Positions 5,507 to 33,022 of a stretch of 64,000 nucleotides of DNA are shown one piece after another (position 1 is the first letter of the stretch; each line of letters starts with the position of its first letter). The DNA comes from Deltaproteobacteria bacterium SG8_13. Its GTDB lineage: Bacteria; Desulfobacterota; Desulfobacteria; Desulfobacterales; SG8-13. A model generated the notes under the pieces. It did not search any database. It saw only the letters and a program-made list of their open reading frames with translations, and was not told the DNA's origin. A program made the translations under genes and the position numbers. Location of the stretch: positions 1 to 64,000 of the forward strand of contig LJNK01000003.1 in NCBI GenBank assembly GCA_001303025.1, read 5' to 3'.

Positions 5507-6890
5507 CTTCCCCTCCACTTGGTTCCGGGTCAAGTATGCGTTCGAGCATGTCCGTCGGCAGGATCTTCTCCGCTAACGCAACTGCGCGCACGGTCTGTCC
5601 GGTTTCAAAGGCAATCTTTGCGATTGCCGCCGCTTTCTCGTAACCGATGTGTGGGACCAGGCCGGTGACCATCGCCAGACTTTTTTCGATGTTCGCTGCG
5701 CAAGCCTCCCGGTTGGCGGTGATACCCCTTATACACTTTTCGGTGAAAACTTCAACACCTGCGCCGAGCAAACCGATCGACTGCAGCAGGTTGTGAGCGA
5801 TCATCGGGATGGCAACGTTGAGCTCGAAATTTCCGGACTGGCCCCCGAAGGTGATGGCGGTGTCGTTCCCCGTCACCTGGGCGGCCACCTGAAGGACAAC
5901 CTCCGGAATTACCGGGTTAACCTTGCCCGGCATGATGGATGAACCCGGTTGCAGAGCGGGGAGGTTGATTTCCCCCAGCCCGCAGCGGGGACCGGAGGCC
6001 AGCCAGCGAATGTCGTTGGCGATTTTCGTCAGGCTGACCGCAACGGTTTTCAAAGCACCGCTGACCTCAACGGCGGTATCCCGGGCACTCTGGGCTTCAA
6101 AGTGATTTTCGGCTTCCAGAAACGCTATGCCGGTTTCGGTCGCAATCCGCCCGATCACCTTGCCCGCAAACTCCGGGTGGGCATTGAGCCCATTTCCAAC
6201 AGCCGTTCCTCCCAGGGCCAGCTCCGCCAAACGACCCTCGGTGCTTTCCAGGCGACGCATGCCCAGCTCTATCTGCCGGGCATATCCCGAGAATTCCTGG
6301 CCAAGTGTCAGCGGCACGGCATCCTGCAGATGGGTGCGGCCGATTTTGTGAATGCCGGAAAACGCTGCTGTTTTCTGCAGCAGTGCTTCGCGACAGCGGC
6401 GTAAGGCCGGAAGCAACCGGTCGCGCATCGAAATCAGCGCAGCGATATGCAAGGTGGAGGGAATCACATCATTGCTCGACTGCCCGCAGTTGACATGATC
6501 ATTGGGATGTACCGGCGTTTTTACCGCCAGGGTACCGGTCAGAATTTCGTTGGCCCTGGCGGCCAAAACCTCGTTCATGTTCATGTTGGTGGAAGTTCCC
6601 GAACCGGTCTGGAAGACATCCACCACAAACTGTTCGGCAAATTTCCCCTCCATGACTTCCCCGGCTGCCTGAACGACAGCACCGGCGGTCTTTTTATCCA
6701 ACAGACCCAGCTCCAGGTTGACATGCGCGGCGTGCTTTTTCACCATCGCCAGGCTGCGGATGAAAACCGACGGAAGGGTTAGACCGCTGACGGGAAAATT
6801 TTCCGCGGCTCTTTGGGTCTGGGCTCCGTAGTAAGCGTCTGCCGGGACCTGAACGGTTCCCATGGTATCGATCTCTTCACGGTATGTCAT
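5499..6890 (-). CDS. fumC: Class II fumarate hydratase
   Basis: Fumarase C interconverts fumarate and malate in the cytoplasm without an Fe-S cluster. The 463-residue product matches the family length. It shows GSGTSTNMNMNEV, the GRTHLQDAVPL region, and the superfamily signature GSSIMPGKVNP with its mobile catalytic loop. ATG at 6890 follows GAAGG at six bases. The open frame runs on to 7343, but that extension overlaps other genes and does not resemble fumarase. The stop overlaps the start of the zinc-ribbon gene. Aspartase belongs to the same superfamily, but the sequence around the active site reads as fumarase. Confidence 0.94.
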   Translation of the reverse strand: MTYREEIDTMGTVQVPADAYYGAQTQRAAENFPVSGLTLPSVFIRSLAMVKKHAAHVNLELGLLDKKTAGAVVQAAGEVMEGKFAEQFVVDVFQTGSGTSTNMNMNEVLAARANEILTGTLAVKTPVHPNDHVNCGQSSNDVIPSTLHIAALISMRDRLLPALRRCREALLQKTAAFSGIHKIGRTHLQDAVPLTLGQEFSGYARQIELGMRRLESTEGRLAELALGGTAVGNGLNAHPEFAGKVIGRIATETGIAFLEAENHFEAQSARDTAVEVSGALKTVAVSLTKIANDIRWLASGPRCGLGEINLPALQPGSSIMPGKVNPVIPEVVLQVAAQVTGNDTAITFGGQSGNFELNVAIPMIAHNLLQSIGLLGAGVEVFTEKCIRGITANREACAANIEKSLAMVTGLVPHIGYEKAAAIAKIAFETGQTVRAVALAEKILPTDMLERILDPEPSGGEDG

Positions 6891-7030
6891 TTGTCGCCTT
6901 CTTGGTTTCGATTTCGATTGAAGATAAGGGGTTTCGCGGGGGCCGTCAAGAACCCGTGACATGCGCACCGGCGAGGGCTTTGCGGAGGCAGGTGGGAAGC
7001 AGCCGCTCGCAGAAGTGGTATCGCCGCGGG

Positions 7031-7414
7031 TCAGTCGCCGGTTGGCGGTGGTGCGACGAAACCTTTGACGATCTTCAGGATGTCTGCCAGGGTTCCGTCG
7101 CCCTTGGAAACGAAATGGGTGGCACCGGCTTGCAGGGCTGCCTGCCGGTATTCGGGCAAATCGGAGCCGGTGATGATGATCAGCGAGACCTGGGGGCACT
7201 GAGCGGCAAGCCGTGTGGCTATTGCGAGGCCGTCTTCCCCGGGCATGCGGATATCCATGCAGATGATGTGCGGCGTTTGCTCCGCAGCCTTCCGTATTCC
7301 TTCCGGGCCCGAGCCGGCCTCTCGCAGGCGAATGGATGGGCATTCCGCCAGCAGGGCGGTTTTCAACGCACGGCGAAAGGGGCCGTAGGCATCGATGAGT
7401 AGCACATCCAACAT
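7031..7414 (-). CDS. Single-domain response regulator receiver
   Basis: A stand-alone CheY-like receiver of 127 residues, with no output domain. The phosphoacceptor is the Asp in ICMDIRMPG, the switch Thr in IIITGSD, and the Lys in FVSKGDG. The acidic pair that binds Mg at the end of beta-1 is altered: the protein reads LIDAYGPF where most receivers have DD, so the second acid is Ala. ATG at 7414 begins the receiver fold; the upstream extension to 7483 has no ribosome site. It is divergent from the NarL-type regulator (235 bases). A role as phosphate sink or adaptor for the nearby kinase is inference. Confidence 0.8.
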   Translation of the reverse strand: MLDVLLIDAYGPFRRALKTALLAECPSIRLREAGSGPEGIRKAAEQTPHIICMDIRMPGEDGLAIATRLAAQCPQVSLIIITGSDLPEYRQAALQAGATHFVSKGDGTLADILKIVKGFVAPPPTGD

Positions 7415-7649
7415 CGGTTTGTTGTCAAACGGAAGGGCGGATTTTATCGCGCCTCTGAACGGTGAGGTGCTGTTGCCACCCAATCCATGGGAAGGGTTGA
7501 CGTGCCAGTGCGCACGGGTTCAAATCCATCTTTACTGCGTCCTGCCGCCGTGGTAAATGGGGTGGACACTGTATTTTGAGTCGGATAGGGCTGTATTTGC
7601 GGGTTAGCGATGGGAATCGGGGACGAGAACCGGATGCGATGAGGAGCGT

Positions 7650-30250: not shown

Positions 30251-31654
30251 ATGGGCGGTCTTTTTGGCGTCACGGCTACATTCGACTGTGTGAAAGATCT
30301 GTTTTACGGCACTGATTATCACTTTCATCTCGGTACCCGGCGCGGAGGGATGGCGGTAAAAAATTCTCACGAAATCGAACGATCCATCCACAATATCGAA
30401 AACGACTATTTTCGATCCAAATTCGAGGCGGATCTGCAGCGGTTCCGGGGAAATTCGGGGATCGGCGTAATCAGCGACTACGATGCACAGCCGCTGGTTA
30501 TCGGATCGCATTTGGGCACCTTCGCGCTGGTCACGGTCGGGAGGATCAACAACCTGGCCGAACTGGAAAACCGGGCGTTCAGACAGCGGGCACATTTCAC
30601 CGAAACGGCCGGCGGCCAGACCAATCCGACGGAGATGGTGGCCATGCTGATCTGCGAAGAAAACTCCTTTGAAGACGGCATCCGCCATGCACAAAAGGCT
30701 ATCAATGGGTCCTGTTCCATGCTGCTGTTGACTGACGACGGCATTTTTGCTGCCCGGGACCGCCTGGGCCGCACCCCGATCGTTCTCGGGAAAAAAACAG
30801 GCGCCTTTGCAGCCGCCTCCGAAACCTGCGCCTTTCCGAATTTGGGGTATGCAGTGGACCGCTTTCTGGGACCCGGCGAAGTGGTATTTCTCTCCCCCGA
30901 AGGAACCGATACGCGCCGGCCGGCCGGCGATCGAATGCAGGTCTGTGCATTTTTATGGGTGTACTATGGTTATCCGGCGTCCGAATATGAGGGGGTCAAT
31001 GTGGAATATGTCCGCAACCGCTGCGGTGCTGCGCTGGCTCAAGGCGATGATGCCCGGATTGACTGTGTGGCCGGAATTCCCGACTCCGGAATTGGTCATG
31101 CGATCGGTTATGCCAACGAAAAGAAAATTCCCTATGTCCGTCCCTTTGTAAAATATACCCCTACATGGCCACGCAGCTTTATGCCCCAGGACCAATCTTT
31201 GAGGGACCTGGTGGCAAAGATGAAGCTGATACCCATCCGTCGGCTGATCGATGGGCGCAGTATTTTGTTTTGCGAGGACTCGATTGTGAGGGGCACCCAA
31301 CTCAAAGACAACATCCAGGTGCTGTTCGACTATGGTGCCCGGGAAATTCACATGCGGCCGGCATGTCCGACGCTGATCTATCCCTGTGAGTTTCTGAACT
31401 TTTCCACCTCCCGATCGACCCTCGACCTGGCCGGTCGGAAAACCATCCACGAGCTGGAAGGCGAAAACGACTCGCATCTGAATGAGTATGCTTCGCCCGG
31501 CAGTGATCGAAATCGAATCATGGTCGAACGGATTCAGGATCAGCTGCGGCTGACCAGCCTGAAATATCAGCGGCTCGATGATCTGATTGCCGCCATCGGG
31601 CTGCCCAAGGAAAGCCTCTGCACCCACTGCTGGGATGGTTCCTCCTACTTTTAG
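30251..31654 (+). CDS. Amidophosphoribosyltransferase (PurF) homologue with Gly at the nucleophile position
   Basis: PurF normally makes phosphoribosylamine from PRPP and glutamine. This 467-residue homologue has the PRPP motif FCEDSIVRGTQL (usually VDDSIVRGT) and four Cys matching the Fe-S cluster ligands of Bacillus PurF (QVCAF, YPCEF, CTHC). It begins MGGLFGV, where true class II glutaminases begin MCG: the N-terminal Cys nucleophile is Gly. A Cys at position 13 (FDCV) is the nearest alternative. I recall similar MGG-type proteins in other phyla. Activity could be ammonia-dependent or different. GAGG is six bases before ATG. Confidence 0.85.
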   Translation: MGGLFGVTATFDCVKDLFYGTDYHFHLGTRRGGMAVKNSHEIERSIHNIENDYFRSKFEADLQRFRGNSGIGVISDYDAQPLVIGSHLGTFALVTVGRINNLAELENRAFRQRAHFTETAGGQTNPTEMVAMLICEENSFEDGIRHAQKAINGSCSMLLLTDDGIFAARDRLGRTPIVLGKKTGAFAAASETCAFPNLGYAVDRFLGPGEVVFLSPEGTDTRRPAGDRMQVCAFLWVYYGYPASEYEGVNVEYVRNRCGAALAQGDDARIDCVAGIPDSGIGHAIGYANEKKIPYVRPFVKYTPTWPRSFMPQDQSLRDLVAKMKLIPIRRLIDGRSILFCEDSIVRGTQLKDNIQVLFDYGAREIHMRPACPTLIYPCEFLNFSTSRSTLDLAGRKTIHELEGENDSHLNEYASPGSDRNRIMVERIQDQLRLTSLKYQRLDDLIAAIGLPKESLCTHCWDGSSYF

Positions 31655-31698
31655 CCGGCATCCGACCCGTTGGACCGGTGGATATCCAAATTTAAAAG

Positions 31699-31727
31699 TT
31701 GACAAACGCTGCGGCAGCAATTAGTCT
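31699..31727 (+). promoter_or_regulatory. Promoter of the DAHP synthase leader
   Basis: TTGACA (31699-31704) and TAGTCT (31722-31727) are 17 bases apart. The predicted start is near 31734, about 30 bases before the leader peptide, as expected for an attenuated biosynthetic gene. Confidence 0.65.
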
Positions 31728-31765
31728 GACAGCAATCAGAAGGTTACCGATTGGGGTTATACAGG

Positions 31766-31849
31766 ATGAGCAAACGGATCACAGGCAGCCACACCGACAC
31801 CCGGTATTATTTTTATTTCCGCATCGGCCGTCTGCCTGGGGTTCGCTGA
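31766..31849 (+). CDS. Tyr/Phe-rich leader peptide of the DAHP synthase attenuator
   Basis: A 27-codon ORF, MSKRITGSHTDTR then YYFYF then RIGRLPGVR and a TGA stop. Five consecutive aromatic codons (Tyr-Tyr-Phe-Tyr-Phe, 31805-31819) lie between attenuator segments 1 and 2. When charged tRNA-Tyr or tRNA-Phe runs low, a stalled ribosome would mask segment 1 and free segment 2. A GGGG stands nine bases before ATG. The ORF is followed by the terminator hairpin and then the DAHP synthase gene. It is too short for routine gene finding; the call rests on codon content and RNA geometry. Confidence 0.85.
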   Translation: MSKRITGSHTDTRYYFYFRIGRLPGVR

Positions 31850-31901
31850 TCACCACCTATTTCGATTCAGAGCCGCAGGCAGCAAGGCCTGCGGCTTTTT
31901 T
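31782..31901 (+). promoter_or_regulatory. Ribosome-mediated transcription attenuator
   Basis: Four segments are visible. Segment 1, CAGGCAG (31782-31788), is complementary to segment 2, CTGCCTG (31832-31838). Segment 2 also matches segment 3, CAGGCAG (31876-31882). Segment 3 is part of the terminator's 5' arm and pairs with segment 4 (31887-31896). The 1:2 plus 3:4 and the 2:3 pairings are mutually exclusive, the classical trp/phe layout. The aromatic codons sit between segments 1 and 2. Confidence 0.85.
31871..31901 (+). terminator. Attenuator terminator hairpin
   Basis: A perfect ten-base stem, AGCCGCAGGC (31871-31880) with GCCTGCGGCT (31887-31896), has a six-base loop and a run of six T (31896-31901). 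It stands 38 bases before the DAHP synthase start codon. Confidence 0.9.
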
Positions 31902-31939
31902 ATTGCCGAACCCTAAGACAGAAAGAGGAACCGAAGATC

Positions 31940-33022
31940 ATGAAAACCTACGATGTGCGCGTTAAAGATTTCATGCCCTTGATATCCCCTGCGGCACTGA
32001 AAGCGGAATTACCGATCCCCGAAGCGGCCGCTCGAGCGGTGGTCGCAGGCCGCCATGTGATTGAAAATATCATATCCGGGCAAGATCGACGGTTGCTGGT
32101 AATTACCGGCCCCTGTTCGATTCACGACACCGGCCAGGCCCTGGCGTATGCCGAGCGGTTGAAGACCCTATCGGAGATGGTTCAAGACAGCTTGTATCTG
32201 GTGATGCGCGTGTATTTTGAAAAACCGCGAACCACGGTTGGCTGGAAGGGGCTGATCAATGACCCGCACATGGACGGTACTTGTGATATGAGCGAAGGTC
32301 TGCGCCGCGCCCGGCAGTTGTTGCTGGACATCGTCGAAATGGGGCTTCCGACGGCCACCGAGATGCTCGACCCGATCACGCCCCAGTATATTGCCGGCCT
32401 GGTCTGCTGGTCGGCCATCGGGGCCCGCACCACCGAATCGCAGACGCACCGCGAAATGGCCAGCGGCCTGTCCATGCCCGTCGGATTCAAAAACTGCACC
32501 GACGGCGGCCTGGAGCATGCCATCAATGCCATTATTGCCGCCGGATCTCCCCAGCATTTTCTGGGCATCGACCCGCAGGGGCGCACCAGCGTGGTTCACA
32601 CCACGGGCAATCCGGCTACCCATGTTGTCCTGCGCGGAGGCAGACGTCCGAACTACGATTCGGTGAGCATCCGTGAAGCCGTTGAAAAGCTGAGGGGAAA
32701 AGGCCTGGCAGAGACGGTACTGGTGGACTGCTCACACGCCAACTCCAACAAACGCTACAGCGAACAGGCGGTTGTCTGGAGCGACGTCCTCAACCAGCGG
32801 ATAAACGGCAACGATGCCATCGTCGGGATGATGCTGGAGAGCAACCTCGAGGAAGGCCGACAGGATATCGGCGACCACCCGCAAGCGCTTCGCTACGGGG
32901 TGTCCGTCACGGATGCCTGCATCTCCTGGGAAACCACCGAACAGCTGATTCTGGAGGCTCACCGGCAACTTCAATCGTTGAACCCGGAGCCACGGGCAAC
33001 CGCCACCGCCGTTGGGAACTAA
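31940..33022 (+). CDS. 3-deoxy-7-phosphoheptulonate synthase (class I DAHP synthase)
   Basis: This enzyme condenses phosphoenolpyruvate and erythrose 4-phosphate, the first step to Phe, Tyr and Trp. The 360-residue product is the AroF/G/H type: ITGPCSIHD, YFEKPRTTVGWKGLINDP, GARTTESQTHREMASGLSMPVGFKN, and the metal-binding DCSHANSNK. This type is usually feedback-inhibited by a single aromatic amino acid; which one is not clear, so no letter is given. AGAGGA lies ten bases before ATG. Transcription is predicted to be attenuated through the Tyr/Phe leader upstream. Confidence 0.95.
   Translation: MKTYDVRVKDFMPLISPAALKAELPIPEAAARAVVAGRHVIENIISGQDRRLLVITGPCSIHDTGQALAYAERLKTLSEMVQDSLYLVMRVYFEKPRTTVGWKGLINDPHMDGTCDMSEGLRRARQLLLDIVEMGLPTATEMLDPITPQYIAGLVCWSAIGARTTESQTHREMASGLSMPVGFKNCTDGGLEHAINAIIAAGSPQHFLGIDPQGRTSVVHTTGNPATHVVLRGGRRPNYDSVSIREAVEKLRGKGLAETVLVDCSHANSNKRYSEQAVVWSDVLNQRINGNDAIVGMMLESNLEEGRQDIGDHPQALRYGVSVTDACISWETTEQLILEAHRQLQSLNPEPRATATAVGN

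Follow-up and report, generated by a model that had tools for sequence, protein, structure and literature searches.

A predicted aromatic amino acid attenuator before DAHP synthase in Desulfobacterota, and a leader family that may have stayed while the entry enzyme changed

The leader region upstream of DAHP synthase

In the window, which is the whole analyzed stretch of 64,000 nucleotides, a purF-like gene ends at position 31654 and is followed on the same strand by a leader region and a DAHP synthase gene. DAHP synthase catalyzes the reaction with which aromatic amino acid synthesis begins, using PEP and erythrose 4-phosphate. The class I enzyme that an earlier sequence-only reading had placed after a terminator was confirmed by profile, with 480 bits to TIGR00034 at a cut-off of 173. 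That reading had also described a 27-codon leader with the run Tyr-Tyr-Phe-Tyr-Phe, and indeed the ORF has 27 codons (ATG 31766-31768, TGA 31847-31849) with YYFYF as codons 14-18, so that a short ORF with a run of end-product codons, predicted to be translated, lies before the gene. An in-frame TTG could be the start of the leader instead, and the ATG is the start that aligns with those of the relatives. All features are collected in Table 1.

Table 1. Features of the leader region and the gene that it precedes, in window coordinates.
Feature	Position	Strand	Basis
-35 element TTGACA of the presumed promoter	31699..31704	+	sequence; perfect consensus
possible -10 element TAGTCT	31722..31727	+	17 bases after -35; weak, 3/6
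alternative in-frame start TTG	31751..31753	+	AGAAGG 7 bases 5' of TTG; leader would be 32 residues
leader peptide ORF MSKRITGSHTDTRYYFYFRIGRLPGVR + TGA	31766..31849	+	sequence; start and C-terminal LPGVR align with relatives
segment 1, CAGGCAG	31782..31788	+	pairs with segment 2; 79.5% of cells over 30 leaders
control codons 14-18, Tyr-Tyr-Phe-Tyr-Phe	31805..31819	+	sequence; aromatic run kept in 72/102 homologous upstream regions
segment 2, CTGCCTG, within the leader ORF	31832..31838	+	2:3 pairing in 93.3% of cells
intrinsic terminator, 3:4 hairpin and six U	31869..31901	+	scan; 3:4 pairs in 96.3% of cells, compensatory changes
segment 3, CAGGCAG, 5' arm of the terminator	31876..31882	+	sequence; 2:3 and 3:4 pair conservation
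class I-alpha DAHP synthase (aroFGH type), controlled gene	31940..33022	+	TIGR00034 profile

The three seven-base complementary segments proposed by the sequence-only reading are all present and allow mutually exclusive 1:2, 2:3 and 3:4 helices upstream of DAHP synthase. Likewise, the ten-base-pair terminator with six U was recovered as ten continuous pairs, 31871-31880 with 31887-31896 (the scan counts 12), and six T at 31896-31901, so that an intrinsic terminator stands before the structural gene; the U run is 38 bases from the ATG of DAHP synthase. The promoter that had been claimed held up in part: the -35 element is perfect, and 57 of 65 leader regions have TTGAC at the corresponding position, compared with about 5 in shuffles, but the -10 element matches at three of six positions and a consensus scan called no promoter.

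Conservation of the leader among Desulfobacterales

The enzyme was searched in 291 genomes of the same order (Desulfobacterales), and 102 upstream regions of homologues were examined for a terminator preceded by a short ORF in which aromatic codons make up four or more of six. Leader and terminator were found together in 72 of these regions and in none of 510 dinucleotide shuffles, and among the remaining 30 several carry a leader yet fail the terminator rule. Eleven paralogous DAHP synthases (52-56% identity) showed no such leader, so that it does not look like something that DAHP synthase genes carry in general. Phe and Tyr are both present in 62 of 65 tight leaders, 25 of which have Trp as well. 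The individual codons and their exact order vary among relatives while the Phe/Tyr(/Trp) character of the run is kept, and the loss of the leader codons in relatives, which would have spoken against the reading, was thus not what the comparison returned.

The helices were kept as well (the percentages of cells over 30 leaders are given in Table 1), with compensatory changes, and the covariation in all three exceeded nearly all shuffles. Because the window's own leader was among these 30, a second covariance model was made without it, and this leave-one-out model still recovered the element of the window, with a score of 79.9 bits and an E value of 2.7e-16. The nearest sampled DAHP synthases (G197/L083 and G141/L085, 70-72% identity) had no recognizable leader, nor had the single genome of the same family that has the gene (G001/L002). 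In L003 (with L083), a run of eight T lies where a one-base change would yield FFYFRF, so that an error in the metagenome-assembled genome (MAG) or a decayed leader is possible. In L009, one aromatic leader (FFFWFYF, 1380-1445) is followed by two tandem terminators.

Folding of the leader RNA and the predicted switch

The whole leader was more stable than all 200 shuffles (z = -3.8), and the part 3' of the control codons (31818-31901) had z = -5.2, both beyond chance. The free RNA folds as 1:2 plus 3:4, that is, with the terminator. The switch was computed by folding the RNA 3' of the ribosome and nothing else, with the ribosome's leading edge assumed to be 17 bases away from the first base in the P site. 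For the window, with the A site on codons 14-18, the antiterminator reached a probability of 0.88-1.00, while from codon 19 onward it was the terminator, at 0.93-1.00, that prevailed; this puts the computed switch point directly 3' of the last aromatic codon. The downstream RNA was folded alone because a ribosome modeled as an unpaired block lets 1:2 close around it, which is sterically implausible, and that treatment was rejected.

We therefore have an aromatic run, exclusive helices and a terminator, in an arrangement that is conserved across the order and covaries, and we put the probability that the element is a ribosome-mediated transcription attenuator, belonging to a Desulfobacterota leader family that controls aromatic biosynthesis genes, at about 0.93; a response to amino acids is what the codons would predict. 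RNA polymerase would start near 31735 and the ribosome would translate the leader. When tRNA-Tyr and tRNA-Phe are charged and plentiful, the ribosome would reach the stop codon and cover segment 2, so that 3:4 would pair and end transcription near 31901. If one or other of these tRNAs is uncharged, the ribosome would stall on codons 14-18 and hold segment 1 off segment 2, the 2:3 antiterminator would form and the DAHP synthase gene would be transcribed. Without translation, 1:2 would form and the terminator would remain. The classical change from 1:2 to 2:3 pairing on a stall, as the sequence-only reading had it, agrees with the computed switch after the aromatic codons, but not in the placing of segment 1: in trpL, segment 1 overlaps the control codons, whereas in the window it ends 16 bases upstream of them, without overlap, so that a stalled ribosome would part segment 1 from segment 2 rather than cover it. 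That one leader integrates both Tyr and Phe is plausible.

In most relatives, unlike the window, the terminator once completed is favored at equilibrium, and equilibrium folding of full-length leaders was for this reason rejected as a general switching test, failing in most of them. There the antiterminator must form while segment 4 has yet to be transcribed. When truncated RNAs were folded, the 5' arm of the terminator was paired in all leaders (65/65) for the first aromatic codon, in 61/65 for the last and in 36/65 for the stop codon; this measure is a crude kinetic model that also counts weak local pairs, and its outcome is compatible with an antiterminator that forms first.

The leader family under other genes

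The family covariance model, built from DAHP-synthase leaders only, had matches with E <= 1e-6 in 208 of the 291 genomes searched in the order, and others elsewhere in the phylum. Among the best 150 matches in the order, 64 stand 28-231 bases ahead of DAHP synthase and 73 stand 37-331 bases ahead of ADH synthase, the latter genes lying above the cut-off of TIGR01949. ADH synthase, an archaeal-type enzyme unrelated to DAHP synthase and to our knowledge little studied in bacteria, opens the alternative route, which leads from aspartate semialdehyde to dehydroquinate. The other 13 of these 150 have downstream pheA (7, two of them confirmed by profile), ADH synthase (2), DAHP synthase at a contig end (1), aroE (1, confirmed by profile), a contig end (1) and no clear gene (1). 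In the wider phylum, matches precede shikimate kinase (aroK), I-beta DAHP synthase, prephenate dehydrogenase (tyrA) and dehydroquinate synthase II. No genome was on both gene lists (88 genomes with DAHP synthase and 115 with ADH synthase, the ADH synthases being listed at an identity of at least about 70%), and weaker ADH-synthase-like genes are present in some of the DAHP-synthase genomes. From the genes downstream, one leader family seems to mark the entry step of the pathway whichever enzyme performs it, a breadth that the sequence-only reading had not noticed.

Further leader-like elements were observed elsewhere. Two tandem leaders, each with its own terminator, precede an ADP-forming acyl-CoA ligase in L277 (190-510, G385), the aromatic FYYFYY first and then the Tyr/Cys run YCYCYCYC. 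In L224 and L226, Phe-rich leader-like ORFs stand before the binding protein of a branched-chain-type ABC transporter, possibly a control of aromatic uptake or a weak match. A DAHP synthase of Latescibacterota (L021, 1357-1440) has an aromatic leader (YRYFYFYFYY) and a terminator, and the covariance model did not recognize this leader (E 0.18).

Alternative explanations

An ordinary terminator of the purF-like gene next to a chance short ORF, with the DAHP synthase promoter further down, would suit the same-strand gene upstream, and intergenic terminators are common. However, the ORF with its aromatic run comes together with the alternative pairing and the terminator in the 72 homologues and in no shuffle, the conserved TTGAC sits upstream of the leader rather than 3' of the terminator, and a mere 38 bases are left between the U run and the ATG, which makes this account very improbable. 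An RNA-binding protein or a metabolite acting on the hairpins, with the peptide irrelevant, is a control that the hairpins by themselves would permit, but the run is kept as Phe/Tyr(/Trp) despite varying codons and order, the computed switch point follows the control codons and no Rfam riboswitch matches; we give attenuation of that codon-free kind scarcely any weight. Attenuation governed by the leader codons is the reading that we retain.

Whether the leaders of the two enzymes share an origin is a separate matter. Leaders of 25 DAHP synthases and 20 ADH synthases were intermixed in a tree with no grouping by enzyme, their mean identity was 0.58 between the groups and 0.576 and 0.588 within them, and the peptide end LPxVR is common to both; the ADH-synthase leaders compared had been picked from good model matches, which biases them towards similarity, and a tree of RNAs this short carries little weight. 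Families f35 and f23 each include leaders of both kinds. The selection of the compared leaders thus leaves some room for two origins, with likeness arising because attenuators share one build, and so does the fact that a short element is under strong functional constraint. But the model misses E. coli pheL and trpL and also a second leader in the window's own genome, so that generic attenuator likeness is insufficient, and the identities, the intermixing and the shared LPxVR point the same way; separate origins are for us unlikely, although a fair minority of our expectation stays with them. We incline, by a little, to what is the simplest reading, a homologous leader that has stayed in Desulfobacterota while the entry enzyme was swapped between DAHP synthase and ADH synthase, even within f35 and f23.

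A Phe-rich second leader before I-beta DAHP synthase

When reading upstream of an I-beta DAHP synthase in the window's own genome, and not through the search for codon runs, we observed this second leader, MTLNAKTYPDLYLGCFFFGFRSVHPDA (L203, 5308-5483, contig C118), which is Phe-rich (FFFGF, fold z -4.75) and followed by a terminator, before the I-beta DAHP synthase (5524-6339) and pheA (6365-7429). The covariance model of DAHP-synthase leaders had a single match in this genome and did not match the leader on C118, and no other run of five Phe/Tyr codons in the genome lay within a leader with a terminator. Judging by the codons, the leaders of the two DAHP synthases would be weighted differently. 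The search of this genome, which is an incomplete MAG, gave no TyrR-type HTH that passed its cut-off, and this suits the attenuator reading. A kdsA-like gene is split over the contig ends C79 and C92 with overlapping sequence, which is an assembly break.

Comparison with known systems

The window holds a clean predicted aromatic attenuator on DAHP synthase in an anaerobic lineage, and our search of the openly readable literature returned no report of such a leader in Desulfobacterota. The part worth following is a leader family with two alternative entry enzymes, which, as far as the genes downstream indicate, would tie ADH synthase to aromatic supply through regulation. If the swap is true, a cis-regulatory RNA outlives the enzyme that it controls, and the regulation is kept while the chemistry is exchanged. 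A possible origin of amino acid attenuators in gammaproteobacteria, followed by few transfers, has been suggested (PMC3766115); a family in 208 of 291 desulfobacterial genomes (E <= 1e-6) and in the wider phylum speaks against so narrow a gammaproteobacterial picture.

Among the amino acid operon leaders of Rfam (His, Trp, Thr, Leu, Phe), the class of mechanism is alike and none matches the window; up to E 10, no family reached its gathering score, and the best were unrelated sRNAs at chance level. With pheL-pheA and trpL-trpEDCBA of E. coli, the window shares a leader ORF of end-product codons, exclusive 1:2, 2:3 and 3:4 helices and an intrinsic terminator, and differs in that each of those leaders serves one amino acid and another target gene; the covariance model found neither of them.

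The closest precedent is the AroR leader of Corynebacterium glutamicum (Phe-Tyr-Phe), which precedes aroF, a DAHP synthase (Neshat et al. 2014, as summarized in PMC11802643 and PMC7356990). Attenuation of DAHP synthase by a Phe/Tyr leader is therefore not new in kind, and of the earlier view that direct attenuation of this gene is noteworthy, the attenuator itself is supported but its novelty yields to AroR. According to the summary in PMC11802643, limitation of Phe had an effect on AroR and limitation of Tyr had none, which is why we rate the integration of both amino acids no higher than plausible. As these accounts describe it, AroR has in common with the window a leader peptide with Phe/Tyr codons directly upstream of DAHP synthase and transcription attenuation, and it differs in its actinobacterial host, its short FYF run and its response to Phe only, whereas in the present family the runs are longer and often include Trp, and genes other than DAHP synthase are also covered. 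Taken together, the window element would work like AroR, by the descriptions given of it, and like pheL and trpL.
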